Source: Promethearchaeota archaeon (GTDB lineage: Archaea > Asgardarchaeota > Lokiarchaeia > Sigyniarchaeales > SOKP01). Taken from it: a DNA stretch of 64,000 nt. Below are positions 2,117-59,600 of the stretch, one piece after another. The stretch spans positions 1 to 64,000 of the forward strand of contig SHMW01000016.1 in assembly GCA_008080735.1 (NCBI GenBank), given 5' to 3'. The position numbers and the translations under genes were made by a program. The notes beneath the pieces are model-generated. The model was not told the origin of the DNA. It did not search any database and worked only from the letters and a program-made list of their open reading frames with translations. How positions within the stretch are numbered: position 1 is the first letter of the stretch; each line of letters starts with the position of its first letter.

Positions 2117-2369
2117 GTGATATAATTTTCTATCTCATATTTTTTCTTTTTATTTTTAAAATAAGACTTTCAATACGGATAATTTATTTTTTGTATTTTA
2201 GTAACATCGAGAATTTGTATTTTTCATTGATCAAATCATATAATCAATTATTTAGTGTGGGTTGATAAGAAACTTTTGAAATTTAGACTAAAGATTTATA
2301 ATTAAATTTTTGTTCTTATTAAACTAAGTTTTTCGAAATTTAATGTAAACAAGATTGAGGTATAATTAT

Positions 2370-3164
2370 ATGAAAGTTATAGAGATTGAAGGAGTAGGAG
2401 AGAAGTACGCAAAAGTCTTAGAAGAAAATGGCGTTGATGAAGTGGAAGATTTTGTAACATTAAGCTATGAAGATTTAGAAAACCTAGCTGATAAGACAGA
2501 TCTATCACTAAAGCTCTTGGATAAATGGCAAGAGCACGCAGATTTAATGGTTTTGCTTAAAGGCGTTGGACCAGAATACGCTGACGCTCTAAATAAGATC
2601 GGAATTGACAGTGTTAGAGAATTTGCGTATAGAAATCCCGAAAATACCCTTAAAAAACTAGAACAACTAGATAAAGAAGAACCGGACGTCTTGCGCCAAT
2701 TACCAACCTTAGATGATTTAAAAGACTGGATTGAACAAGCGAAAGAGAAGTACAATGTAGATAAAAAAACAAAAGGTCCTGGAACAAAATTAATAAAAAT
2801 CGAAGGTATTGGGGATGAATATGCGAAAGATTTGAAAAAAGCTGGTATCGAGACGTGTGAGCAATTGGTCCCATTATCTAAAAATGATCTTAAGGAATTG
2901 GCGGACAAGACGGGCATTTCCCCCAAGCGCCTTGATAAATGGCAGGAGCACGCCGACCTAATGAGAATTAAAGGTGTAGGTTCTGAATATGCCGACCTTC
3001 TTAACCAGATTGGAATTGATTCGGTGAAAGAACTTGCACAACGAAATCCGGAAAATACTTTAAAAAGGGTAGAAGAATTTGATAAGGAGAAACCAGATGT
3101 CGTAAGACGATTGCCAGTGTTAGACGAGATTAAAGATTGGATTGCCCAAGCAAAAGATTTATAA
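2370..3164 (+). CDS. DUF4332-like helix-hairpin-helix protein, paralog
   Basis: This paralog of the preceding gene has the same two-module build: HhH motifs IEGVGEKYA and KGVGPEYADAL, then IEGIGDEYAKDL and KGVGSEYADLL, each module closing with RNPENTL and DWI.QA. The modules resemble their counterparts in the upstream gene, so four copies of the domain lie in about 1.8 kb. I place the start at ATG 2370. An upstream TTG at 2355 would add five residues but overlaps the TTGAGGT that looks like the ribosome-binding site for ATG 2370. The intergenic gap of 253 bp suggests its own promoter. One motif is altered (GDEYAK instead of GPEYAK). Function unknown. Confidence 0.75.
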   Translation: MKVIEIEGVGEKYAKVLEENGVDEVEDFVTLSYEDLENLADKTDLSLKLLDKWQEHADLMVLLKGVGPEYADALNKIGIDSVREFAYRNPENTLKKLEQLDKEEPDVLRQLPTLDDLKDWIEQAKEKYNVDKKTKGPGTKLIKIEGIGDEYAKDLKKAGIETCEQLVPLSKNDLKELADKTGISPKRLDKWQEHADLMRIKGVGSEYADLLNQIGIDSVKELAQRNPENTLKRVEEFDKEKPDVVRRLPVLDEIKDWIAQAKDL

Positions 3165-3343: not shown

Positions 3344-4126
3344 ATGAAACATATGTGTGGTGTTGATATCGGGTCATTGGCCACCAAAATAGTATTACTT
3401 GACGATAATAAGCAGATGGTTGACTGGCGTTTAAATAGGTCAACATATGATTTCAAACGAGTAGGTCGTAATCTATTTCAAGATATCTTAAAAAAAAACG
3501 AATTATCTCGCTCTGATGTATTTGTAATGTCAACGGGTTATGGAAGAAATACGATAGATTTTGCTGATGATAGAATTACAGAAATCACAGCTCATGCACG
3601 AGGAGCTCAATTTTTTTATCCCGATGCTCATTCTGTCATCGACATAGGAGGACAGGATAGTAAAGCCATTGTTATGTCCTCAAAAACCGGAAATGTCATT
3701 GATTTCCAGATGAACGATAAATGCGCTGCGGGAACGGGCAGATTTTTAGAAGTAATGGCCAACGCATTAGAAATACCTTTAGATGATATGGGGTCTATCG
3801 CATTAAAATCAAATAAGCCAGCTTCAATTAGTTCTACTTGTACCGTATTTGCAGAAAGCGAAGTGATCAGTTTATTTGCACAAGGAACATCAAAAGAGAA
3901 TATAGCCGCAGGGATTCACAAATCAATTGCAAAAAGAGTAGCAGGAATGGCAAAACGAATTGGTGTAGAACCTCTCTTAGTATTCTGTGGCGGTGTTGCG
4001 AAAAACATCGCAGTCAAAAAATATCTTGAAGAAGAACTGGAATTTGAGATCGTACGACCTGAATACCCACAACTCACAGGCGCTCTTGGCGCAGCTCTAT
4101 TGGCTTTGGATAAAAATTCAAACTAA
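3344..4126 (+). CDS. activator ATPase of 2-hydroxyacyl-CoA dehydratase (HgdC/BadF family)
   Basis: This BadF/BadG/BcrA/HgdC-family ASKHA ATPase uses ATP hydrolysis to push one low-potential electron from a [4Fe-4S] cluster into a dehydratase or reductase partner. The first phosphate loop VDIGS lies near residue 6, IDIGGQDSK near 100 and FCGGVAKN near 215. The two cysteines that bind the bridging cluster in the homodimer are at about 127 (DKCAAGTGRF) and 165 (STCTVFAESEV), close to the positions known for Acidaminococcus HgdC. The length of 260 residues fits a single-subunit activator. A good RBS (AAGGAG) precedes ATG 3344. It is the only activator in this window, while five potential partner subunits occur, the nearest at 7325. 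One activator serving several enzymes is inference. Confidence 0.88.
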   Translation: MKHMCGVDIGSLATKIVLLDDNKQMVDWRLNRSTYDFKRVGRNLFQDILKKNELSRSDVFVMSTGYGRNTIDFADDRITEITAHARGAQFFYPDAHSVIDIGGQDSKAIVMSSKTGNVIDFQMNDKCAAGTGRFLEVMANALEIPLDDMGSIALKSNKPASISSTCTVFAESEVISLFAQGTSKENIAAGIHKSIAKRVAGMAKRIGVEPLLVFCGGVAKNIAVKKYLEEELEFEIVRPEYPQLTGALGAALLALDKNSN

Positions 4127-4452: not shown

Positions 4453-7182
4453 ATGAATGAGGAAAATATAAACGGTTCTCTGGAACAACTAGCGTCTCCA
4501 TGGCAAGTTTCCCATAAAACAGTAATTGAACAACTCGACGTGGATCCAAATAAAGGGTTGAATTCAAGTGAGATTGAACCGAGAAGAGAGAAGTTTGGGT
4601 CTAACAAGATGAAAAAGAAAGAGAGAAAAGGCGCCTTGGAAATATTGATAAATCAAATAAAAAGTATCATTATAATTCTACTTATCGCCGCCACAGTGAT
4701 ATCATTGATTTTTGGTGAAATTATAGAAGCAATCGCGATCTCTGCTGTTATAATTATTAATACCTTAATCGGCTTTTTCACAGAATTAAAGGCAGCCAGA
4801 TCGATGGAAGCGTTATATGAATTAACACAAATTAAAAGTAAGGTTCTACGAGAAGGAGAAGTGAGGAAGATCTCTGCTGATGAGTTGGTGGTGGGAGATA
4901 TTATAGTTCAAGATGCCGGAGATCTAGTGCCCGCAGATTCACGAATCATTGATTCTTCAAAGCTACAAGCCAATGAGTCTTCTTTGACCGGGGAATCAAT
5001 TCCAGTTAATAAACAGAATAAAAAAATTGAAGATGAAAAAACTCCATTGGCAGAAAGGTATAATATGCTATATAAAGGTACAGCAATCACCAGGGGATCT
5101 GCCGAAGCAATTGTAGTTGCAGTGGGAGAGGATACGGAATTGGGGCGAATCACCTCTCTGGTTGAAGAAGCAGGTGAGGGAGAAACTCCTCTCACAGAAA
5201 GATTACAAAAGCTGGGAAGGAATCTCTTTTGGGTCACATTAGTAGTTGCGGTAGTTGTGGGAATAAGTGGATTAATAAGAAATCCGGAAAACTTATTCTT
5301 AATGATTGAGTCCGCTTTAGCTTTAGCAGTGGCAACCGTTCCAGAGGGTCTGCCCGTTGTCGCTACAATCTCTTTAGCACGCGGAATGTGGAGAATGGCA
5401 GATAAAAATGCACTTATAAATCGCCTATCTGCAGTCGAAACCTTGGGATCCACGAATATCATTTGTACCGATAAGACAGGGACGCTCACAGAAAATAGGA
5501 TGACCGCAATTAAAATATATACAAATAAGGAGATTATTGAAATTACCGGAAAGGGCTTTGAAATTAGTGGAAAATTTGTAATCGACAATGAAGAAATAAA
5601 TCCAGAAGAACTCACTACTCTTTCTAGATTGATTAAAGTCTGTTTGCTATGTAATAATGCAAATTATAAAAAAGGAGAGGGAGATTCTGATGATGAATTT
5701 GTTGGAGAGCCTTTAGAAGTTGCATTATTGATAATGGGATTGAAATCGGGCTTTAGCCGTAAGCAGCTTTTAGAGCAATATCCGGAAGTAAGAGAAGAAT
5801 CTTTTGATCCTAGTATTAACAAAATGGCAACTATTAACAAATTTAATGGTAAATATTTAGTCTCGGTGAAGGGTGCACCAGAAGATGTCTTAGAGGTGTG
5901 TACATCATATTGGACCGAAAACGGAGTAAAATCTCTCACCCAAGAAATTAAAAATAAAATTCTACAAAATAACCAATCGTTTGCCGAAAAAGGATTAAGA
6001 ATAATAGCAACAGCTACCAAAGAAGCTCAGAATCAAGATATTGAGCCATATTCAGATTTAGAATTTTTGGGACTTGTTGCACTTTTAGACCCAGCTCGGA
6101 AAGAAGTCAAACCCGCAATTGAAATTTGTAAAAATGCGGGCATAAACATCATTATGATTACAGGAGATCAAGCGCCTACTGCACAATATATCGGAGAAGA
6201 ACTCGGTTTAATTTCTCACGATGGCTCTAATGTTAGGGAAGGTAAGGTGATTAAGGTGTATGATGAATTATCAAGAGAGGACATTGAGGAAATTGAGAAA
6301 GGCACGATCTTTGCCAGAGTTGAACCCGAACAAAAATTAAATCTTATTGATATTTTTCAAAAAGAAGGGAATATCGTTGCCATGACAGGAGATGGAGTGA
6401 ACGATGCCCCTGCACTTCGTAAAGCCAATATAGGTGTTGCAATGGGGCAGAGAGGGACGCAAGTAGCTCAGGAGGCAGCAGATATGATTTTGGAGGATGA
6501 TAATTTCGAGACGATCACCACCGCAGTAGAGGAGGGTCGAATTATTACAGATAATATTAAGAATTTTGTAATATATTTGCTCTCGTGTAACATTAGCGAA
6601 ATTTTACTAGTATTTTTCGCATCTCTATTGGGGATGCCATTGCCGATTCTCCCATTGCAAATATTATTTTTGAATGTGGTCACGGATATTTTTCCCGCAT
6701 TTGCCCTAACCGCAGGAGAAGGTACACCAGGAATTATGAAACGAGCCCCTCGGGATCCAGATAAACCAATAATCACAAAAAATCATTGGGTCACGATTGC
6801 GATATATGGGTTTGGGCTTACCATGACCGTTTTAGGAACGTATGCGATTGCCCTTTATATATTAGGCTTTGATGAAGCTCGCTCGGTCACGATTTCATTC
6901 TTGACTCTGGCTTTTGTTCAACTATGGCATGTGCTTAATATGCGAAATTTTAGGTCAAGTTTTTTCAAGAATGAAATTACAGACAATAGTTATATTTGGG
7001 GAGCGATTGTCTTAAGCGCTACCATAATCCTACTGGCGACATATCTTCCAGGGCTTTCATTTATCTTAAAAACTGTGGATCCTCAAATTGATGGTTGGTT
7101 CTTGATTTTGGGAATGAGTTCGATTCCCTTAATTTTAGGTCAAATTTGGAAGTCATTCAATAATGAAATTTCACTTTTTTAG
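4453..7182 (+). CDS. P2-type cation ATPase, SERCA-like (probable Ca2+ pump)
   Basis: This membrane ATPase exports cations with a phospho-aspartate cycle. The order is complete: an N-terminal cation-ATPase domain, TGES near 178 (actuator), PEGLP in M4 near 297, the phosphorylation site DKTGTLT near 339, a nucleotide-binding domain, TGDGVNDAP near 645 and six C-terminal helices. The ion-site residues of SERCA are preserved: Glu in PEGLP, Asn and Glu in M5 (SCNISEI), and Asn, Thr and Asp in M6 (FLNVVTD). This supports Ca2+ more than Na+/K+ or H+. At 909 residues it is typical of prokaryotic PMA1/SERCA relatives. The gene stands alone, with a long leader. Mn2+ or Na+ transport remains possible. 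Confidence 0.9.
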   Translation: MNEENINGSLEQLASPWQVSHKTVIEQLDVDPNKGLNSSEIEPRREKFGSNKMKKKERKGALEILINQIKSIIIILLIAATVISLIFGEIIEAIAISAVIIINTLIGFFTELKAARSMEALYELTQIKSKVLREGEVRKISADELVVGDIIVQDAGDLVPADSRIIDSSKLQANESSLTGESIPVNKQNKKIEDEKTPLAERYNMLYKGTAITRGSAEAIVVAVGEDTELGRITSLVEEAGEGETPLTERLQKLGRNLFWVTLVVAVVVGISGLIRNPENLFLMIESALALAVATVPEGLPVVATISLARGMWRMADKNALINRLSAVETLGSTNIICTDKTGTLTENRMTAIKIYTNKEIIEITGKGFEISGKFVIDNEEINPEELTTLSRLIKVCLLCNNANYKKGEGDSDDEFVGEPLEVALLIMGLKSGFSRKQLLEQYPEVREESFDPSINKMATINKFNGKYLVSVKGAPEDVLEVCTSYWTENGVKSLTQEIKNKILQNNQSFAEKGLRIIATATKEAQNQDIEPYSDLEFLGLVALLDPARKEVKPAIEICKNAGINIIMITGDQAPTAQYIGEELGLISHDGSNVREGKVIKVYDELSREDIEEIEKGTIFARVEPEQKLNLIDIFQKEGNIVAMTGDGVNDAPALRKANIGVAMGQRGTQVAQEAADMILEDDNFETITTAVEEGRIITDNIKNFVIYLLSCNISEILLVFFASLLGMPLPILPLQILFLNVVTDIFPAFALTAGEGTPGIMKRAPRDPDKPIITKNHWVTIAIYGFGLTMTVLGTYAIALYILGFDEARSVTISFLTLAFVQLWHVLNMRNFRSSFFKNEITDNSYIWGAIVLSATIILLATYLPGLSFILKTVDPQIDGWFLILGMSSIPLILGQIWKSFNNEISLF

Positions 7183-7324
7183 AGTGTTTTCAATTCCTAA
7201 CTATCATATTATTGAATGTATAGGAAAAAGAAAGCAAATCCGACGACTTTTTGGGTAAAGAGTAAATTTTATCAACAATATACTCTTGTAATTAATAATA
7301 TTAATTTAGCTAAAGAATTTAATT

Positions 7325-8461
7325 ATGCACTCCTTGGATCTTCTATCGGAATTCACTTCGTTTATTGAGCAGAAGAAAGCGCAAGGTAAGAAGATAATCG
7401 CGTTTCTTTCCCACGACAACGTGCCAGAAGAGCTAATTGATGCAGCGGGTTTTGTTCCATTGCGCTTGGTTTTTGCTGGGGACGATTCGCTAATGAATGC
7501 GAGCCATAACTTTTTACCTCCTTCGACTTGTAGTTTTGCCCAAAGTTGTATTGGATTCTTTTCTCTGAAACCGAACATGTATAGATTCTTGGATTATGTA
7601 GATTATATTTTATTGTCTAATCATTGCGTATCCGATATAGTAGTTTCAGAAATTATTTCTCAAAATTTTAATGTTGAAAGGTTGGATTTTTATGTCTCCT
7701 ATACTCGAAATAATAATGCATTAAAGTATTATAAAATCGAATTAGAACAATTTCGAAAAGAACTTGAAAAAATTAAGGGAGAAAAAATTCCCGACGAAAA
7801 AATCCGTGAAAGTATTATAAAGTACAACGAATTTAAAAAAACACTCGCAAAAGTAAAAGATTTGCAAATCAAGGGATCGGAAAAATTAAAAATATATCAA
7901 AAAGCAATGCTATTCGGACCACAAATTCAATCTGAACTGGAAGAATTTATTGCTCAAACCAAAGAAAAAAACGATTATATGGGTAATAATGCGAAAAATG
8001 TAATTCTTACGGGGTGTTCGATCTTCATTGGGGACTATCTGATGGATTTAATAGAAGAAAGCGGGGGGAATATCGTATTTTTTGATAGTTGGGTGGGATA
8101 TAATTATTACACTCAAACTTTTTCCCAAGAAATTTTAGATAAAATTAGCGATCCCATCGATCTATTAGTCAAACGATTTGAAAATAATGTTTATGGCGAT
8201 CACACTGTTCCTAATTCTCTCGATGAAAGGATTGCGCTGATTGAGAATTATGTCAATGAATTCCAAAAGGAGCATGGAATTAAATTGGGCGTAATTAATC
8301 ACGTGATTAAATTTTGCGACCACTTCGCTTTATTTCAATCGTTATTTAAAGATAAACTGCAAGATATAGGTATTCAAGTGTTAAATTTGGAAAGAGATTA
8401 TTCACGATCGATAAGAGGTCAGCTTTCCACTAGAATTGAAGCATTTATGGAGATGTTATGA
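7325..8461 (+). CDS. 2-hydroxyacyl-CoA dehydratase/benzoyl-CoA reductase-type subunit
   Basis: The 378-residue protein is of the HgdB/FldC/BcrC family (2-hydroxyglutaryl-CoA dehydratase D-component). It shows the family opening, VPEELIDAAGFVPLRL near 36, then cysteines in STCSFAQSC (near 70), SNHCVSD (near 100) and LTGCSIF (near 235) that could hold the [4Fe-4S] cluster. It ends with the family tail TRIEAFMEML. Enzymes of this family remove water from 2-hydroxyacyl-CoAs or reduce aromatic CoA rings by ketyl-radical chemistry after activation by an HgdC-type ATPase. The next gene starts 5 nt after its stop, so the two subunits are co-transcribed. TATA-like sequence lies 30-40 bp upstream of ATG 7325. 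The substrate cannot be read from the sequence. Confidence 0.82.
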   Translation: MHSLDLLSEFTSFIEQKKAQGKKIIAFLSHDNVPEELIDAAGFVPLRLVFAGDDSLMNASHNFLPPSTCSFAQSCIGFFSLKPNMYRFLDYVDYILLSNHCVSDIVVSEIISQNFNVERLDFYVSYTRNNNALKYYKIELEQFRKELEKIKGEKIPDEKIRESIIKYNEFKKTLAKVKDLQIKGSEKLKIYQKAMLFGPQIQSELEEFIAQTKEKNDYMGNNAKNVILTGCSIFIGDYLMDLIEESGGNIVFFDSWVGYNYYTQTFSQEILDKISDPIDLLVKRFENNVYGDHTVPNSLDERIALIENYVNEFQKEHGIKLGVINHVIKFCDHFALFQSLFKDKLQDIGIQVLNLERDYSRSIRGQLSTRIEAFMEML

Positions 8462-8465
8462 GAAA

Positions 8466-9806
8466 ATGAGTATATTTACTGATGATATTATAAGTTTTAA
8501 GTCGGTCCTAAGGTTGGCTTATAATTTCTTAGCGGGACGAGAATATCTAAAGAAGAAGAAATTTAAAGACAGAAAAAAACTAATTTCTGTCGCACTTCCC
8601 TTTTCCGACTTGATATATTCAGCTGGCGCCGTACCAGTGTTCCCGATACGGATGGAGAAATTCAAGGTGAATGCCTATTTGAACGCACTCAATTCTGCAA
8701 AAAGTTTAATTGGGTGGGATCTCACTACAAGATTACTTAGTTTTGTGAGACAATTTGATGTTTTAAAAATCTTAGATACGGTTATGGATGATGTAATCCA
8801 TACGATAAACGAAAAATATAACGAATTATATGAATTGGGAATCGACAACGGTATTCCCAGCGATTTTTGCTATGGAATCACCGGACTAACTGGAATGTTC
8901 ATTTCAAAAGGTAAAAATGTTGATGCTAATCTCAATTTTACTATACGATGTTCGGCGTGGAACAAATATTCTGAATCTCTGAAGAATTATGTGCCCAGGC
9001 AGATTTGGGTGGATGTCCCTCCAAGAGAATATGGAAATGCCATTGAGTTACTTACAGACAATATAAGTAAGGCCATAACCGATTTAGAAGATGTGACGGG
9101 AAATCTAGTTACCGATAATAGTCTAAAAAAGCAATTTAGGATTGGAAATCAAATTAAGAGATTTTATAAGACGGTTTTATTTGAATGCAGTGCCTCTGAT
9201 TTCTATCCGTGCAACCCTGCTACATTTGCTGAGATTCTCGCATTATTAGGATTAAGTTTCCAAGATTACAATTCCAATGCTCAACGATATTTAGAAAATT
9301 TTAGCTATCTAGTGAAAGAAATGAGAGAGCGGATTGACAAGGGAATTGGAATGGATGTTTCTGATATGCCTCGGGTTATGATAACTCCTGTATTTGGAGG
9401 ATGGGAGCCTGAAACACATGAAATTCTTTATAATTTAGGTGCAAGGACAATTTACGCTGACTGGGAGTTACTTAAAATGCTAGAGGAGATACCAGTTGGA
9501 AGAAATTCGAATCCAGTCGAAGATTATGCTCGTTTTGTAATGAATGCGACAATGCGAGGGATAGGATGCGATCAGGAGACATTGACGGACAGTTATATTG
9601 AAACCGCTAAAGATTTAAACGTAGACGGCTTAGTCTTCAACCAAGTATTTGGCTGCCATAGCATATCAAATTGTTATTCTCAATTACGTCGCAAAATTCG
9701 AAAGAAGCTCGAGATCCCAACAACAGTTATTAATTTTAACAAAATCGGAGAAAACGTAGAGCAAGTAAGAACTCGCCTCGGCGCATTTATGGAAATGTTT
9801 AGATAG
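8466..9806 (+). CDS. 2-hydroxyacyl-CoA dehydratase/benzoyl-CoA reductase-type second subunit
   Basis: This larger partner of the preceding gene shows HgdA/BcrB-like organisation: FSDLIYSAGAVPVFPIR near 45, a string of cysteines (DFCYGI, IRCSAWN, FECSASDFYPCNP, GIGCDQ, FGCHSISNCYS), the VFGGWEPETHE segment, and a C-terminal NFNKIGE...TRLGAFMEMF like the family's substrate/cluster region. I start at ATG 8466 rather than the earlier TTG at 8436. The TTG lies inside the upstream gene, and GGAGATG about 11 nt before ATG 8466 serves as its RBS. The unusually high number of conserved-looking cysteines could mean more than one Fe-S cluster. Pairing with 7325 as a heterodimer is inferred from the 4-nt gap and shared family. 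Confidence 0.8.
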   Translation: MSIFTDDIISFKSVLRLAYNFLAGREYLKKKKFKDRKKLISVALPFSDLIYSAGAVPVFPIRMEKFKVNAYLNALNSAKSLIGWDLTTRLLSFVRQFDVLKILDTVMDDVIHTINEKYNELYELGIDNGIPSDFCYGITGLTGMFISKGKNVDANLNFTIRCSAWNKYSESLKNYVPRQIWVDVPPREYGNAIELLTDNISKAITDLEDVTGNLVTDNSLKKQFRIGNQIKRFYKTVLFECSASDFYPCNPATFAEILALLGLSFQDYNSNAQRYLENFSYLVKEMRERIDKGIGMDVSDMPRVMITPVFGGWEPETHEILYNLGARTIYADWELLKMLEEIPVGRNSNPVEDYARFVMNATMRGIGCDQETLTDSYIETAKDLNVDGLVFNQVFGCHSISNCYSQLRRKIRKKLEIPTTVINFNKIGENVEQVRTRLGAFMEMFR

Positions 9807-9948
9807 CATTTTTATCGAAAATTTAAGAAAATATTTTAGCAATATTCATTCTCATGGTTTTTAAAAGAGGTCTTTTTAAAATATTCCACAAAATTTATTA
9901 TATCGGTAATTATTTGTAAATCCAAATACCATAATATAAGAGCTAATT

Positions 9949-11010
9949 ATGAGGGCATACCCATTTGCAATAATATATTTAGTTCCATTTTCCGTGATAT
10001 TAGGTTATCTTCTTGGAGAGTTTTTTGGAGGACATTTTGGAGGATTTTTAACATTTTTGACCCCTATTTTTGTCTTTATTGTAATTCCGCTTCTCGATGA
10101 GGTGCTTGGATACACCTATAAAAATCCAGATCCGCAAAAAGAAAAGGAACTGGGGAAGAAAAAATCATTTCGAGTAATAACTTGGTTCGCAATGCCGATA
10201 ACCATAGGATTAGTTATATGGGGCGCATACATCGTATCTCTCGAGAATCTTTCCATTATTGAATTTATAGGACTCACGATCTCTATTGGAATTTCCAGTG
10301 GAGTCTTAGGGATTAATACAGCACATGAAATGCAGCATCGGGTAAACAATAAGCTTGAACCCTTTCTTGCGAGATTGACTTTATTGCCATCTTTATATGT
10401 TCACTGGGGATTAGAACACGTAACAGGGCATCATCGTTGGGTCGCAACGCCCGAAGACCCCGCCACAGCCAGATTAAATCAATCATATTATAGTTTCTGG
10501 CCTCAAACGGTATTTGGCAGTTTCAAATCGGCCTGGAAATTCGAAAAGTCGAAGCTCACTCGTCAAAAAAAGCGTTTAATTTTTTTTCGAAACAGGGTGC
10601 TTCATTATGTGTTTTACGAAATTGCATTCATACTATTTATAGCATATTTCTTTGGCTTTTTTGCCCTCCTCTTCTTTATACTTCAAAGTCTTATAGCTAT
10701 ATCCCTATTAGAGATAATCAACTATATTGAACATTATGGGTTGTTAAGAAAAAAAGACTCCGAAGGTAATTATGAGAGAGTGAAGCCACATCATTCATGG
10801 AATTCGAGTAAACGATTGACGAACTGGTTTTTATTCAATCTCCAAAGACATTCAGACCATCATTATAAACCAGGAAGGCGATATCAACTTCTAAGACATT
10901 TTGATGAGGCACCCCAGCTACCGACTGGATACGCGGGAATGGTCTTAATTGCCTTGATTCCGCCTTTATTCAAACGGATTATAAATCCACGGATTCCAAC
11001 TAAAAGATAA
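9949..11010 (+). CDS. AlkB-type membrane alkane hydroxylase/fatty-acid-desaturase-family di-iron enzyme
   Basis: This polytopic membrane protein has all the diagnostic elements of AlkB alkane 1-monooxygenases: HEMQHR near residue 125 (His box 1), EHVTGHHRWVATPEDPA near 155 (His box 2 with its following signature), NYIEHYGL near 260 (the HYG motif) and LQRHSDHH near 300 (His box 3). The known enzymes bind two irons and use O2 plus rubredoxin electrons to hydroxylate terminal carbons of alkanes; relatives act on xylene or lipids. Six or so membrane helices and the 353-residue length fit. No rubredoxin or rubredoxin reductase gene is adjacent. Upstream lies the dehydratase pair, downstream a reductase-like gene at 11105. 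The family call is firm; alkane as substrate is open. Confidence 0.87.
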   Translation: MRAYPFAIIYLVPFSVILGYLLGEFFGGHFGGFLTFLTPIFVFIVIPLLDEVLGYTYKNPDPQKEKELGKKKSFRVITWFAMPITIGLVIWGAYIVSLENLSIIEFIGLTISIGISSGVLGINTAHEMQHRVNNKLEPFLARLTLLPSLYVHWGLEHVTGHHRWVATPEDPATARLNQSYYSFWPQTVFGSFKSAWKFEKSKLTRQKKRLIFFRNRVLHYVFYEIAFILFIAYFFGFFALLFFILQSLIAISLLEIINYIEHYGLLRKKDSEGNYERVKPHHSWNSSKRLTNWFLFNLQRHSDHHYKPGRRYQLLRHFDEAPQLPTGYAGMVLIALIPPLFKRIINPRIPTKR

Positions 11011-17103: not shown

Positions 17104-18606
17104 ATGCCACGAGGAGGGGGAATTAGACGAACACGAATAGGTGGGATGAATGGTGGATTTAGAGGAGGAGGATTCCGAGGAGGTCCAGCTACATTTAGAT
17201 CTAGCACAATAAGAAGTTCTGGAAGGCCTTTTGGTAGAACAGGCGCCCCAAGAACGGTTTCTCGTAGCCCCTCAGGACCTTATCGCCATACATATTATAG
17301 GCCGAGACGAAGATATTATGGCTATTGGCGCTACCCGTGGTATCGAAGGTTCTGGTACTCTCCTTTTTGGGCAGGGTATCATTATAGGTCGTGGTACTAT
17401 TCTCCTGCATATGTAGGCGGAGGAATTGCTATATTTATGATTATGATGCTGATCATTTTACCAATAGCGGGAGTAGCATTCTTTTTTCCATTCGATAACG
17501 CAGATCCTTCTGGAAGGGTAAATTATCGATCCACGGAGACAATTTATTATAATGAGTATTGGTATGAATATGAATATATTGAAGCGGGAAATAGTATTAC
17601 GTATTCTATGCAATCTTCTCCAAGTGTGGTAAGCTTTGCCATCTGGGATCAACCATTTGAAGATTTGCCTACGGGGACGAGAACGGGGAATATGAATGAA
17701 ACGATCTTTAATATCCCAAATAATGGATATGAATATTGGACTACCTTTCTGAAAGCCGGATCTTCCCTCGAATATGCGTTTAATTCCAGTGTGAACGTAG
17801 ACTTTTTTATCGCAGATGCGTATGATTTATATTTATGGAATCAATATGATTTTTCCACCTTCTATAAGGAGGAGAATGATATAAATCAAAGTTCTGGGAC
17901 TTTTAGCATTACAGAAGCACAAGATTATTATTTAGTTTGGTATAATGAAGATTATTCATCTGTTGATGTAACCTACGATATTAACTACACCGCAGTAGAT
18001 GTGATCGATCTCAGCCAAGCTGAGGTGTATAATCAATCTATAACGTCAATCAGTCAATCTACGTTTGAAGTCCCAAATAATGGAAATTGGTATTTCTTCA
18101 TATATTTTGATCCAATGGATTCTCCCGAAGAATCCACTGAAATCACGTTCGATGTTACTTATGATACGGGAATCACTGCACGAGACAAATGGATTTCCAT
18201 TCAACCAATTTTAATAGTGATCGTAGTTATAATTGGTATTGTTATTGTCGCAGCATTTCTCGCTAGAAAAAGCCAGAAAAAAGCCAAGGAAAAGAAAATG
18301 GGGCTCAAAACCACAAGTCCGACTGCTCAAAAAGATATAGATGAAGAACCAAAAGCTATCTCACCATATAAAGTCAAACGTATTTCCGAAAATGAATGTT
18401 TACGATGTGGGGCAGAATTAAAACCGAACGCAAAGTTCTGTCATATCTGTGGTGGGAAAACAGAAGGTAGAAAAGTGGCAAGTAAATCGGTTATGACTCC
18501 AGTAGATTCTAAAAATTGTACATTTTGCGGAAACTCTATAAAACGTGATCAAAAATTCTGCACCTACTGTGGAACTGAGATATCTCAATCTAATACCTCG
18601 AAATAA
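17104..18606 (+). CDS. membrane protein with Arg/Gly/Tyr-rich N-terminus and C-terminal zinc ribbons
   Basis: The 500-residue protein is built from unlike parts. Residues 1-100 are rich in Gly, Arg, Tyr and Trp (GGFRGGGFRGG, then many YRR and WYR groups). A first membrane helix lies at about 108-130. A beta-rich extracellular part full of Tyr, Asn and Asp follows, with two similar halves each containing FxxPNNGxxYW/F. A second helix sits near 365-385, and a cytosolic tail carries two zinc ribbons (CLRCGAEL...CHICGG; CTFCGNSI...CTYCGT). The start is fixed by AGGAGGT at 17091-17097. The RG-rich head recalls RNA-binding or phase-separating segments, and its placement before the first helix suggests it is cytosolic. 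No known family was recognised. Confidence 0.65.
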   Translation: MPRGGGIRRTRIGGMNGGFRGGGFRGGPATFRSSTIRSSGRPFGRTGAPRTVSRSPSGPYRHTYYRPRRRYYGYWRYPWYRRFWYSPFWAGYHYRSWYYSPAYVGGGIAIFMIMMLIILPIAGVAFFFPFDNADPSGRVNYRSTETIYYNEYWYEYEYIEAGNSITYSMQSSPSVVSFAIWDQPFEDLPTGTRTGNMNETIFNIPNNGYEYWTTFLKAGSSLEYAFNSSVNVDFFIADAYDLYLWNQYDFSTFYKEENDINQSSGTFSITEAQDYYLVWYNEDYSSVDVTYDINYTAVDVIDLSQAEVYNQSITSISQSTFEVPNNGNWYFFIYFDPMDSPEESTEITFDVTYDTGITARDKWISIQPILIVIVVIIGIVIVAAFLARKSQKKAKEKKMGLKTTSPTAQKDIDEEPKAISPYKVKRISENECLRCGAELKPNAKFCHICGGKTEGRKVASKSVMTPVDSKNCTFCGNSIKRDQKFCTYCGTEISQSNTSK

Positions 18607-51633: not shown

Positions 51634-52929
51634 TCATAAAAGAGTTTGAGTAAACATACTGATCTTGTTTTTAATAGCATCTATAGATGTGACTCTGGCA
51701 TCTCCTACATCTAATTCGATCAATAGCATCGGAATTCCAACCTCTTCTCGCAAAGCTTCTCGTAGTAATTTAGGCACAGAGCCAAATTGTTTGCATGCAA
51801 TACTCGAGGTATAAATAAAACAATCTGCTGAATAATCTTTAGCCATCTTCACACAATCTTCTATAAAAGGGTAATATAATTCTGTACTCTGTTTTGTCAT
51901 AGGGAAGTTCATGGTCTTTTTAGCCATATCAAAAAACATATTATCCAATCCATTCTCTGTATCAATTGGATCAGAAAAACTATAATTAAAAATATCAAAC
52001 AAAATGCTCAATCCTAATTCGCGGTCGAGCCATTCACATAAGGAGATATCGAAGAAAGTTAGCATATAAGGCCATATAGATCTTATAGTTTCCTCTTTCC
52101 CATAATGGTCTCCGTTAACATATCGTTTTTTAGCCATATTTTTTATTTTCGAATAAAATGTTATATTCTCCCTTGTTCCAGATAATAGAATTGTTGTAGC
52201 TGCTGAGATTGCATTATAAAGGTTATCTATAGGACTAGGGATAGCTCTAATAAGATCAAAAATCTCTAATTTTATTTGACTAACTCGGTTTTCTATTTCT
52301 ATATGCTTCTTCATTCTATCAAAATCGGGCTCTTGACCGAGAATTTTACCTAGCTTTTTTAGACCATTTTTTAGTTGACTAGCAAAGAATTCATAGCTTT
52401 TTTCTGAATGTGTGTAGGGTAAATCCATAATGACCAAGGGGATTTTTTTTTTATATAAGAAAAAAGGATAAGACGCACATGTATTATCACATGGAGCTGT
52501 AGGGGTTATAATCGCATCAAATTTGATAAGATCGTCTAAGGAAAAGCCCAGAGTCGCTCGTTGACTTGAACAAGTATGGAATGGGTGCCCCCAATTAAGC
52601 ATAATGTCATAGTACTTTTCAACTCCATCCAGTAATAATGCAGCTAATATAAATGAAAGTGATTCAATGCAGATAGGGACACACTCAAAACAAAAAAGAT
52701 ATTCAGCTGGTAGGGAAAAATGATAGCCAACAATAGGAAGATTTTCCTCGGCTTTTACGATATTTTGTTCCAAAACACTTTCTATTTCCCTTAATCCTAC
52801 TCTTAGAGAGGGAGTAGTATTTTTGGGCAGTATACGCTCTACTAATTCACGAGAACTCGATATCGCATCTTTTAACATAATATATGGAAGAATCTTATTT
52901 TCCAATTGGTTTCTAGATTTGGGTAACAT
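51634..52929 (-). CDS. benzoyl-CoA reductase/2-hydroxyacyl-CoA dehydratase-type subunit, orphan
   Basis: The protein is about 431 residues and very similar throughout to the product of 57147 (shared ISSxRELVERIL, WGHPFHTCxSQ, TPTAPCDNT, IRSIWPYML, LREALREEVGIPML). It belongs to the HgdB/BcrB-like subunits. Cysteines in FCFECVPIC, HTCSSQ, APCDNTC and IACKQFG are candidates for the cluster. I place the start at ATG 52929, the counterpart of the paralog's start; a TTG at 52968 would add 13 residues. Unlike the paralog it has no second subunit or SCP2 gene beside it, so it may share them or have gained another role. Confidence 0.75.
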   Translation of the reverse strand: MLPKSRNQLENKILPYIMLKDAISSSRELVERILPKNTTPSLRVGLREIESVLEQNIVKAEENLPIVGYHFSLPAEYLFCFECVPICIESLSFILAALLLDGVEKYYDIMLNWGHPFHTCSSQRATLGFSLDDLIKFDAIITPTAPCDNTCASYPFFLYKKKIPLVIMDLPYTHSEKSYEFFASQLKNGLKKLGKILGQEPDFDRMKKHIEIENRVSQIKLEIFDLIRAIPSPIDNLYNAISAATTILLSGTRENITFYSKIKNMAKKRYVNGDHYGKEETIRSIWPYMLTFFDISLCEWLDRELGLSILFDIFNYSFSDPIDTENGLDNMFFDMAKKTMNFPMTKQSTELYYPFIEDCVKMAKDYSADCFIYTSSIACKQFGSVPKLLREALREEVGIPMLLIELDVGDARVTSIDAIKNKISMFTQTLL

Positions 52930-53123
52930 TTCTGTGAGAAAGTGGAATAGAATAGATTTAGAATTCAACTAATAATTTTACTATTATATTAGCTATAAAT
53001 GATAATAAAGTTTGATTTACTAAAATGATTTTTTTGAAATCTGCATCAAATTGAACAGTATTATGGAATGAGCATAAAAGAGATAAATAAAAAAGAAATC
53101 TTATCTTCATACACTCAAAACTT

Positions 53124-57146: not shown

Positions 57147-58436
57147 TTATAATATTGTTTTAGAAAACATATTGATTTTATCTTTTATTATCTTAGTTGA
57201 GGTAAATCGTTTGTCTCCGACATCGAGATCAATAATTAACATTGGTATTCCAACTTCTTCTCTGAGAGCTTCTCGAAGCACCTGTGGTACCGAACCGAAT
57301 TGTTTGCAACCTAAATGACTGGTAAACACAAAACAATCGGCAGAAAAATCTTTTGCTAACTGAACGCAATTTTCAATGAAAGGATAATAAAATTCCGTAG
57401 ATTCTTTCATCATAGGAAAATTCATACCTCTTCTCGCCATATCATAAAAGAGAGTATCTAAATCTTCTTTTGTGTTTATGGGATTAGAAAAATTATAATT
57501 AAAAATATCAAATAACACACTCATCCCGATTTCTCTATCTAAATATTCGCAAAGACTTAAATCAAAAAATATAAGCATATAAGGCCATATGCTACGTATT
57601 TTCTCCTCCTTACCATATTCACTTTTGTTTTTATATCTCTGCTTTGCGATTTCCAAATACTTTTCATAAAATTCTAATTTTTCCGAAGTCCCGGAAGCAA
57701 ATACGGACACCCCCGCGGAAATGGCATTGAACATATTTTCCACGGGACATGGTTTCGCTTTTCTTAGTTCAAATAATTCTAATTGAATGGCATGGATTTT
57801 ATTTTCGATTTCTATATGCTTCTTCATTCGTTCAAAATCAGGTTCTTGACCTATTATCTGACCTAATTTATTAAGAGACAATTTTAATTGTTGCCCATAA
57901 TACTCATAGCTTTTCTTCTCGTGCAGATAGGGGATATCTGGTATAACTAAAGGTATATCCTTATATTCAAAAAAGGGATAACTTGCGAATGTATTATCAC
58001 ATGGGGCTGTTGGAGTGATGATCGCATCAAATTTAAATAAATCCTCAAGAGTCATTCCCATTACTCCTTTTTGCGAGGTACAAGTATGGAAAGGATGACC
58101 CCAGCTAAGCATTACATCATAAAACTTCTCAACTCCGTCAGGTAATAATGCTGAAAGAAGATAGGAAGTGCCTTCTACACATATTGGCACGCAATCAAAA
58201 CAATACAAATACTCTCTTTGGAAAGCAAAATGATGCCCAATGACGGGCAGTCCATCATTCGCTTTTTCCACGGCACCTTTAATTACTTCTTCAATTGCTT
58301 TAGCACCGATCTTCAAAGATTCAATCTCTCCTTCCGGCAAAATTCTTTCCACTAATTCGCGAGTTGAGGAGATCGAATTGAGAACCATTTCATATGGAAC
58401 AACCTTATTTTCGAATATTTTTTTGTCCATTATCAT
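57147..58436 (-). CDS. benzoyl-CoA reductase/2-hydroxyacyl-CoA dehydratase-type subunit
   Basis: The 429-residue subunit is of the HgdB/BcrB-like family and the paralog of the 51634 product. Regions: RELVERILPEG near 25, HHFAFQREYLYCFDCVPICVEG near 62-85, SWGHPFHTCTSQ near 108, TPTAPCDNT near 135, QEPDFERMKKHIEIENK near 195, and SADCFVFTSHLGCKQFGSVPQVLREALREEVGIPMLIID near 365-405, where the last cysteine probably binds the Fe-S cluster. GGAGAA is its RBS. It follows the 58458 subunit by 21 bp in one operon that begins with the SCP2-like gene. Likely electron donor: an HgdC-type activator such as that at 3344. Confidence 0.82.
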   Translation of the reverse strand: MIMDKKIFENKVVPYEMVLNSISSTRELVERILPEGEIESLKIGAKAIEEVIKGAVEKANDGLPVIGHHFAFQREYLYCFDCVPICVEGTSYLLSALLPDGVEKFYDVMLSWGHPFHTCTSQKGVMGMTLEDLFKFDAIITPTAPCDNTFASYPFFEYKDIPLVIPDIPYLHEKKSYEYYGQQLKLSLNKLGQIIGQEPDFERMKKHIEIENKIHAIQLELFELRKAKPCPVENMFNAISAGVSVFASGTSEKLEFYEKYLEIAKQRYKNKSEYGKEEKIRSIWPYMLIFFDLSLCEYLDREIGMSVLFDIFNYNFSNPINTKEDLDTLFYDMARRGMNFPMMKESTEFYYPFIENCVQLAKDFSADCFVFTSHLGCKQFGSVPQVLREALREEVGIPMLIIDLDVGDKRFTSTKIIKDKINMFSKTIL

Positions 58437-58457: not shown

Positions 58458-59600
58458 CTAGGATATCATCTCTAAGAAGGCTTCTATTCGTGTTTGTAAT
58501 CTTGTGGTATCTGCTTGGAAATTTTCTCTATCGAAATTAAATACAGGGATATTGAGATTTTTTAGTTCATGTTCAAACAGCATATTGTCACATCCATGAA
58601 GATCACAATTATTAATCCTTTGTAAGAGAACGCCATCTATTGCGCCTTTTTGGATTTCTTGTTTGATAAAGTTTAACCTTCGATCGTGATCATCCATAGT
58701 TCTTGGACATGAAGGATTTCGAAAATACAATCGTTTCGCGATTGCTTTAAGAGGATTTGCCATAGTATTGTCTACATCGTCCATTATCGTTTTTTTCCCG
58801 AAGCATAAATTATCTGAGATAATTATTGCATCCGATTCTTCGACCAATTTTGTTAATTGAATATTATCGACAACACTTCCAATCAAAAGAATTCGTTTTT
58901 TTCCTTGGGTATCTAAACCTTCTCTTTTCTTAAAAATTTTTAACAAACGCTCTAATTCCTGATTAGCGATATCCTTCGGAACAGAGCTATTTGCTATAGA
59001 AAGTTGTAGGGCTTCGGTTCCACTCAATTTTGGAGAATCTAACATTCTTAAATCAAATATTTTTCTCAGTAAATGCCGATTTTGATTATAAAGAGCATTA
59101 GAGGATCTTAAATCTTCATCTGTTATTTCTACATCATATGCTTTTTCGATTTTTTCTTTTAATTCTCTTATCTCTTCATAAAACCATTGGAAGCCTTCCT
59201 CAGAAATTATGTGGGGAAGGGCAATATAAAACCGCGGGACGAGTTTATTGAATCCATCTCGCTTAAATACGACCATATCATAGATCTCGAACATTCTTCT
59301 GCTATGATCACAGCTATTACAAATAAATAATCCATCTAAAAAATCATATTCTCCATCCAATGCAAGGTTTAGTGTACTTCTAACGAATGAACAAGTAAAT
59401 CTCACCATATAGGTATCTGCTTTATCTGTATCTGTATTATCAGTTGCTCTTATTCGATACGGGAACATCCCCGCGGCCTCCAATAATTCTTCAGGAATGT
59501 AAGTACAATAATACCCCGCTATCTTCTTATCTGTCCCCTCGATGTGTTGATTTGGTATTTTATTTGCAAGTGATAGGAATGGATCACTTTCTAATCGCAT
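58458..59600 (-). CDS. benzoyl-CoA reductase/2-hydroxyacyl-CoA dehydratase-type subunit
   Basis: This 380-residue subunit shows the benzoyl-CoA reductase BcrC/HgdA pattern more clearly than the others: IAGYYCTYIPEELLEAAGMFPYRIRA near 27-52, VRFTCSFVRS near 75, GLFICNSCDHSRRMFEIYD near 95-115 (the SCDHSR element of ring reductases), NCDLHGCDNMLFEHEL near 325 and the family tail TRLQTRIEAFLEMI. The RBS is GAGGGAG. It lies between the SCP2-like gene (16 bp) and the 57147 subunit. An aromatic or alicyclic CoA thioester is thus a plausible substrate, but a 2-hydroxyacyl-CoA cannot be excluded. Confidence 0.84.
   Translation of the reverse strand: MRLESDPFLSLANKIPNQHIEGTDKKIAGYYCTYIPEELLEAAGMFPYRIRATDNTDTDKADTYMVRFTCSFVRSTLNLALDGEYDFLDGLFICNSCDHSRRMFEIYDMVVFKRDGFNKLVPRFYIALPHIISEEGFQWFYEEIRELKEKIEKAYDVEITDEDLRSSNALYNQNRHLLRKIFDLRMLDSPKLSGTEALQLSIANSSVPKDIANQELERLLKIFKKREGLDTQGKKRILLIGSVVDNIQLTKLVEESDAIIISDNLCFGKKTIMDDVDNTMANPLKAIAKRLYFRNPSCPRTMDDHDRRLNFIKQEIQKGAIDGVLLQRINNCDLHGCDNMLFEHELKNLNIPVFNFDRENFQADTTRLQTRIEAFLEMIS

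Follow-up and report, generated by a model that had tools for sequence, protein, structure and literature searches.

A predicted AlkB alkane monooxygenase in a few Asgard archaea of the Loki- and Thor-type lineages

INTRODUCTION

The FA_desaturase superfamily includes AlkB, the membrane di-iron alkane 1-monooxygenase. The closest systems with solved structures are the AlkB-AlkG of Fontimonas thermophila (8f6t) and FtAlkB (8sbb). In 8f6t, the metal ligands are nine histidines (His137, 141, 167, 171, 172, 272, 311, 314, and 315) and Glu271 (PMC10113152). Mutagenesis has probed the leucines of the AlkB channel, and a valine-type residue at the chain-length gate occurs in AlkB enzymes that accept chains of at least 12 carbons (PMC10110569). 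A survey of 24,692 genomes placed archaeal alkB only in one Nanoarchaeota MAG, with Marine Group II cited besides; the Nanoarchaeota copies group with gammaproteobacteria, and Asgards are not among the reported hosts (PMC9535955). Oxygen use in Asgards has been tied, for its time, to respiring Heimdall-type lineages (PMC6737245). Our search of open-access full texts found, among the papers listed, no report of AlkB or an alkane monooxygenase in Asgards.

Here, we analyze a gene in a 64,000-nucleotide stretch (the window; positions 1-64,000, forward strand, of contig SHMW01000016.1) of Promethearchaeota archaeon GCA_008080735.1. A sequence-only reading had called the gene an AlkB-type, O2-dependent hydroxylase in an anaerobe-like archaeal context and had offered two alternatives: either the lineage meets oxygen, or the enzyme does something else, for example, lipid modification or oxygen removal.

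RESULTS

Identity, fold, and substrate channel of the predicted enzyme

The gene under study is as follows.

9949..11010, + strand: alkB, membrane di-iron alkane 1-monooxygenase (353 aa, ATG start)

In a Pfam profile search this ORF matched FA_desaturase at 113 bits, and in a sequence search of all solved structures in the PDB its only strong matches were AlkB-AlkG 8f6t (302 bits, E 3.7e-89) and 8sbb (226 bits). These matches confirm the AlkB call, which had been made from the His boxes and the NYIEHYGL motif (residues 258-265). The 8f6t ligands map onto H126, H130, H157, H161, H162, H262, H301, H304, H305, and E261, with 10/10 present. A structure model built with 34 homologues (pLDDT 94.1) aligns with 8f6t at TM 0.93 and 1.6 Å and with 8sbb at TM 0.90, the only PDB entries found at E<=0.001, and its fold is distinct from that of SCD1- and Scs7p-type desaturases/hydroxylases. 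By every sequence and structure test applied, the predicted protein is a bona fide AlkB. A desaturase identity was ruled out by the PDB matches and the AlkB fold, and identity with XylM was ruled out by the PDB matches, the position in the tree, and the fold.

The channel leucines L120, L254, L295, and L298 are retained. The chain-length gate is occupied by Val42, versus Trp55 in Pseudomonas putida GPo1, Ile54 in 8f6t, and Trp62 in 8sbb, and this residue points to putative substrates of C12 and longer. All six Asgard AlkB proteins described below have intact metal ligands and carry a tryptophan (Trp153 in the window) beside ligand His157, where 103 of 108 others have the usual phenylalanine.

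Distribution and phylogeny

A search across the phylum recovered AlkB from 6 of 228 Asgard genomes in three genera, as a single copy per carrier genome, in line with the earlier remark that AlkB is rare in archaea. The carriers are three of the five genomes of the window's genus, one genome of another family in the same order, and two of a more distant lineage. Within the public genome collection, the window protein has its four closest AlkB loci in genomes titled Lokiarchaeota and Thorarchaeota, at 58-73% identity. Asgard AlkB proteins of different lineages share 55-60% identity, and identity to the best bacterial AlkB is ~43-46%.

The suggested phylogenetic comparison with bacterial AlkB and XylM placed the six Asgard proteins in one clade (support, 100/99), within which the two lineages split as in the taxonomy; this clade was unchanged in a second tree with the long branches removed. 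The nearest branch outside the clade joins a myxobacterium and an unclassified bacterium, with weak support (80/69; 86/69). The window protein sits within the AlkB tree, apart from XylM. The two closest copies of the distant lineage, L006 and L007, differ by a dN of 0.072 against a dS of 1.9, which indicates purifying selection; inside the window's genus dN/dS is undefined because dS is saturated. A different FA_desaturase-family protein, above the Pfam cut-off and unmatched by the AlkB search, is encoded at L103:1468-2214 (another Asgard genome, G052; single contig).

Host genome and genomic context

The window belongs to a 4.15-Mb draft genome that is 93% complete, with a contamination estimate of 7.2%. 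The host is an Asgard genome that has genomes titled Lokiarchaeota and Thorarchaeota as its closest relatives. The locus L005, from an independent Lokiarchaeota MAG, has 12 neighboring genes in common with the window over ~14 kb, from a P-type ATPase at 4453 to a gene ending at 18606. This synteny excludes a chimera at 9.8-12.2 kb, which had been named as the finding that would undo the AlkB claim. Two other carrier contigs, of 172 and 417 kb, have genes around alkB in common, including CysRS. The smallest carrier contig (9.8 kb, G162) encodes a UFL1/DDRGK-PCI-type protein, an Asgard-like neighbor, and its base composition is near that of another contig of the same genome. Contamination was thus ruled out by the L005 synteny, the Asgard-only clade, and the Asgard-like gene on the G162 contig. 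Compared with the rest of the window, alkB is mildly unusual in codon usage (z -2.0) and has a GC z of 0.8; the proposed composition check therefore gave weak evidence of recent transfer.

The surroundings of alkB include the following features, in which HGD-D stands for the 2-hydroxyglutaryl-CoA dehydratase D-component.

3344..4126, + strand: BadF/BadG/BcrA/BcrD-type ATPase, HGD-D enzyme activator; adjoins the HGD-D pair in L005
7325..8461, + strand: HGD-D family protein (HgdB or double-cubane reductase-like), upstream; kept in one other congeneric genome
8436..9806, + strand: second HGD-D family protein, immediately 5' of alkB
9858..9884, + strand: TATA-like element TTTTTAAAAGAGGTCTTTTTAAAATAT, ~65-90 nt 5' of the alkB start codon
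11105..12169, + strand: saccharopine-dehydrogenase-like NAD(P) oxidoreductase, 3' of alkB; kept in L005, missing in L008
12187..13053, - strand: HisJ-family PHP phosphatase, the sole alkB neighbor common to the window, L005, and L008
42210-44027: aldehyde:ferredoxin oxidoreductase, within the same window

The archaeal, anaerobe-like setting described in the sequence-only reading holds up, given the HGD-D pair, its activator, the aldehyde:ferredoxin oxidoreductase, and carriers in which no terminal oxidase was found. Its term for the neighbors, radical dehydratases, is loose, since the top-scoring model for the pair is the double-cubane reductase, at a score well under the cut-off of that model. 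The HGD-D/alkB gene order recurs in L005 and is absent at the alkB loci L008, L006, L007, and L090; a functional tie is therefore doubtful, and we rejected a link that is not kept beyond two genomes. More broadly, the alkB neighborhood is not conserved outside the genus, and genes of a dedicated alkane pathway did not turn up next to alkB. The TATA-like element is common to L005 and, in part, to L008, which suggests that alkB may be driven from its own promoter. Further HGD-D paralogues in the window (51634-52968, 57147-58436, and 58458-59600) indicate that the genome holds many proteins of this type. Two tandem DUF4332/helix-hairpin-helix repeat proteins lie at 1322-2116 and 2355-3164.

Oxygen enzymes and rubredoxins

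In the six carriers, all draft genomes in which absences are provisional, we found no heme-copper oxidase (COX1), bd oxidase, or Fe/Mn-SOD, and COX1 exceeded its cut-off in 15 other Asgard genomes. A pairing of AlkB with aerobic respiration in Asgards was thus not supported, since none of the six carriers is among the 15 COX1 genomes; at p 0.66, six carriers are too few for this non-overlap to be called avoidance. The retinal-forming beta-carotene dioxygenase BCD (PF15461), an independent O2-dependent enzyme, had no match over the cut-off in the Asgard phylum.

The genome search proposed earlier succeeded for rubredoxin and did not find terminal oxidases in the drafts. The window's genome encodes four rubredoxin-domain proteins, namely, two of ~46 aa, an acyl-CoA dehydrogenase fusion, and a multi-knuckle protein. 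The fusion (L001:247-1653, contig C19) has its rubredoxin domain at the C terminus of the acyl-CoA dehydrogenase. The multi-knuckle protein (L004:985-1989, contig C3; 334 aa), as read by eye, has several rubredoxin-like CxxC knuckles after a rubrerythrin-like N-terminal region. No rubredoxin gene adjoins alkB at any Asgard locus within the DNA available around each, and a rubredoxin reductase was not among the genes identified.

Light exposure and habitat

At L008 (G155), a class II photolyase gene and its DUF523/DUF1722 partner lie head-to-head with alkB, an arrangement that led us to search the whole phylum for photolyases. DNA photolyase is encoded in all six AlkB carriers versus 42 of 222 other Asgard genomes (Fisher p 7e-5; p 3e-4 without G155, which prompted the test; p 0.03 at the genus level), with these p-values ignoring relatedness past the genus count. 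Microbial rhodopsin exceeds its cut-off in three of the six, including the window's genome, versus 12 of the 222 (p 0.004). Both genomes of the window's genus without AlkB are also without photolyase. Photolyase and rhodopsin attest to light exposure and only imply O2.

For four carriers the accession gives the origin: a salt-crusted lagoon in Baja California, sampled in its top 1 cm, for SHMX and SHMU (PMC6737245), and, through the accession range WJIJ-WJMT, the hypersaline mats of Shark Bay for WJIS and WJMJ (PMC7495880). The main text of neither paper mentions alkanes. Together with photolyase in 6/6 and rhodopsin in 3/6 carriers, this origin at the surface of hypersaline mats lends clear indirect support to the suggestion that the lineage meets oxygen, the better-supported of the two alternatives originally offered.

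The window's genome holds two further genes related to light. A Staygreen-family protein (L164:9285-9749, contig C39; PF12638, 161 bits) is encoded next to a photolyase (7899-9251) and a DUF523/DUF1722 protein (6896-7885). In plants, PF12638 is the magnesium dechelatase of chlorophyll breakdown, and the archaeal protein may serve to detoxify chlorophyll, or to exploit it, in mats of phototrophs. A short microbial rhodopsin (L163:6668-7276, contig C65; 202 aa, PF01036) is probably a schizorhodopsin. Its contig also carries an intein-bearing DNA polymerase, and the search for the retinal-forming BCD enzyme found none in this genome.

DISCUSSION

We consider it probable that Asgard alkB specifies a terminal hydroxylase that acts on long aliphatic chains and depends on O2 and rubredoxin, in cells that are otherwise anaerobic. 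On this view, a bacterial-type AlkB was acquired early and retained in places with light, O2, and phototroph alkanes. Daylight, O2, and cyanobacterial alkanes are all expected at the surface of hypersaline mats and lagoons. For the Asgard enzyme we infer the substrate, the electron donor, and the use of O2. Substrates would be C12+ chains, e.g., the C15-C17 alkanes of mat cyanobacteria, and electrons would come from one of the rubredoxins of the genome; the acyl-CoA dehydrogenase fusion suggests, by way of conjecture, a route from fatty-acid oxidation via rubredoxin to AlkB. The alcohol product would be converted to the aldehyde and then to acyl-CoA, which would feed beta-oxidation and fermentation. 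O2 would be a co-substrate released by neighboring phototrophs, not a respiratory acceptor, and the reaction would also remove it.

Synteny, the Asgard clade, Trp153, dN/dS, and composition taken together point either to a single ancient gain from bacteria or to an old gene that has been lost many times. AlkB has resided in some Lokiarchaeia- and Thorarchaeia-type genomes for long enough to diverge to the identity now seen between lineages. Most likely, a single transfer from bacteria brought in alkB before these lineages spread or early in that process, and most Asgards either lost the gene or never retained it. Exchange of alkB among Asgards of the same mats is possible.

It is unlikely, although it deserves some weight, that the O2-using AlkB acts instead on an archaeal membrane lipid chain or isoprenoid hydrocarbon and serves lipid modification (e.g., hydroxylation under salt or light stress) rather than alkane feeding. 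The single copy per genome, the salt- and light-stressed mats from which carriers come, and the fact that no alkane-degradation operon adjoins alkB would all suit such a role, and the Asgard-specific Trp153 next to His157 could reshape the pocket. However, L254, L295, L298, and the small gate V42 match long-chain alkane enzymes, and the fold is that of AlkB and not of a lipid desaturase/hydroxylase. We regard it as improbable that AlkB is mainly an O2 sink that lowers O2 near sensitive enzymes such as the HGD-D pair, with an incidental product. Carrier drafts in which neither terminal oxidases nor Fe/Mn-SOD were found, and two genomes with alkB immediately 3' of the HGD-D genes and near the activator, speak for such a sink, but the HGD-D neighborhood is missing at L008, L006, L007, and L090, and anaerobes usually rely on flavodiiron proteins, whose reaction does not require an organic substrate. 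A role of AlkB as an O2 sink is possible, and nothing specifically favors lipid modification or oxygen removal.

Contamination of the MAG with bacterial DNA, or a recent and transient transfer without function, is very improbable. The 7.2% contamination estimate, the patchy occurrence (6/228), and the mildly deviant codon usage of alkB would accord with it, whereas the synteny with an independent MAG, the Asgard-only clade with 55-60% identity between lineages, the purifying selection, and the ligands intact in 6/6 argue against it. Fainter still is the prospect of an O2-independent AlkB, a hydroxylase or desaturase variant that uses another oxidant under anaerobic conditions: nothing but the host's anaerobe-like gene repertoire (aldehyde:ferredoxin oxidoreductase, HGD-D, no oxidase found) speaks for it, whereas the residues of the O2-activating site are all kept, O2 is to be expected in the lit surface mats from which the carriers originate, and no AlkB is known to work without O2.

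Asgard AlkB might mark a new lifestyle, which we put forward tentatively, as less likely than not: fermentative, light-exposed Loki-/Thor-type archaea living on cyanobacterial alkanes, with O2 as an AlkB co-substrate without respiration and possibly with electrons from the acyl-CoA dehydrogenase-rubredoxin protein. The close AlkB copies in Asgards of sunlit salt mats suggest that some relatives of the ancestors of eukaryotes use O2 chemically without breathing it. Such use is relevant to how oxygen was first encountered by the archaeal partner in eukaryogenesis, and a conserved, predicted O2-dependent monooxygenase would extend it to Loki-/Thor-type lineages regarded as strict anaerobes. AlkB offers a single-gene, assayable test of Asgard oxygen use, and archaea would become candidates for the breakdown of cyanobacterial alkanes in mats.

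Set against known systems, the window protein is like 8f6t and 8sbb in fold, in its site of nine histidines and one glutamate, and in the HYG motif, at ~37-42% identity. It differs from the AlkB-AlkG of 8f6t in having no fused rubredoxin, and from both in the gate residue (Val in place of Ile or Trp), and it has Trp153 where Phe is usual. Its best non-Asgard matches are AlkB proteins of Legionella, Bacteroidota, Myxococcota, and gammaproteobacteria (~40-47% identity). Bacterial plasmid alkB is often followed by rubredoxin genes, whereas Asgard alkB stands without an adjoining one. XylM and other FA_desaturase-superfamily hydroxylases have the His-box superfamily in common with the window protein; XylM itself lies on a distant branch, at ~30% identity over part of the protein. 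The host, too, sets the window protein apart from 8f6t and 8sbb, being an archaeon in which no terminal oxidase was found, and the aerobically respiring, COX1-bearing Asgards possess a terminal oxidase, whereas 0/6 AlkB carriers yielded a heme-copper or bd enzyme. Asgard AlkB is thus a known enzyme in a new host lineage.
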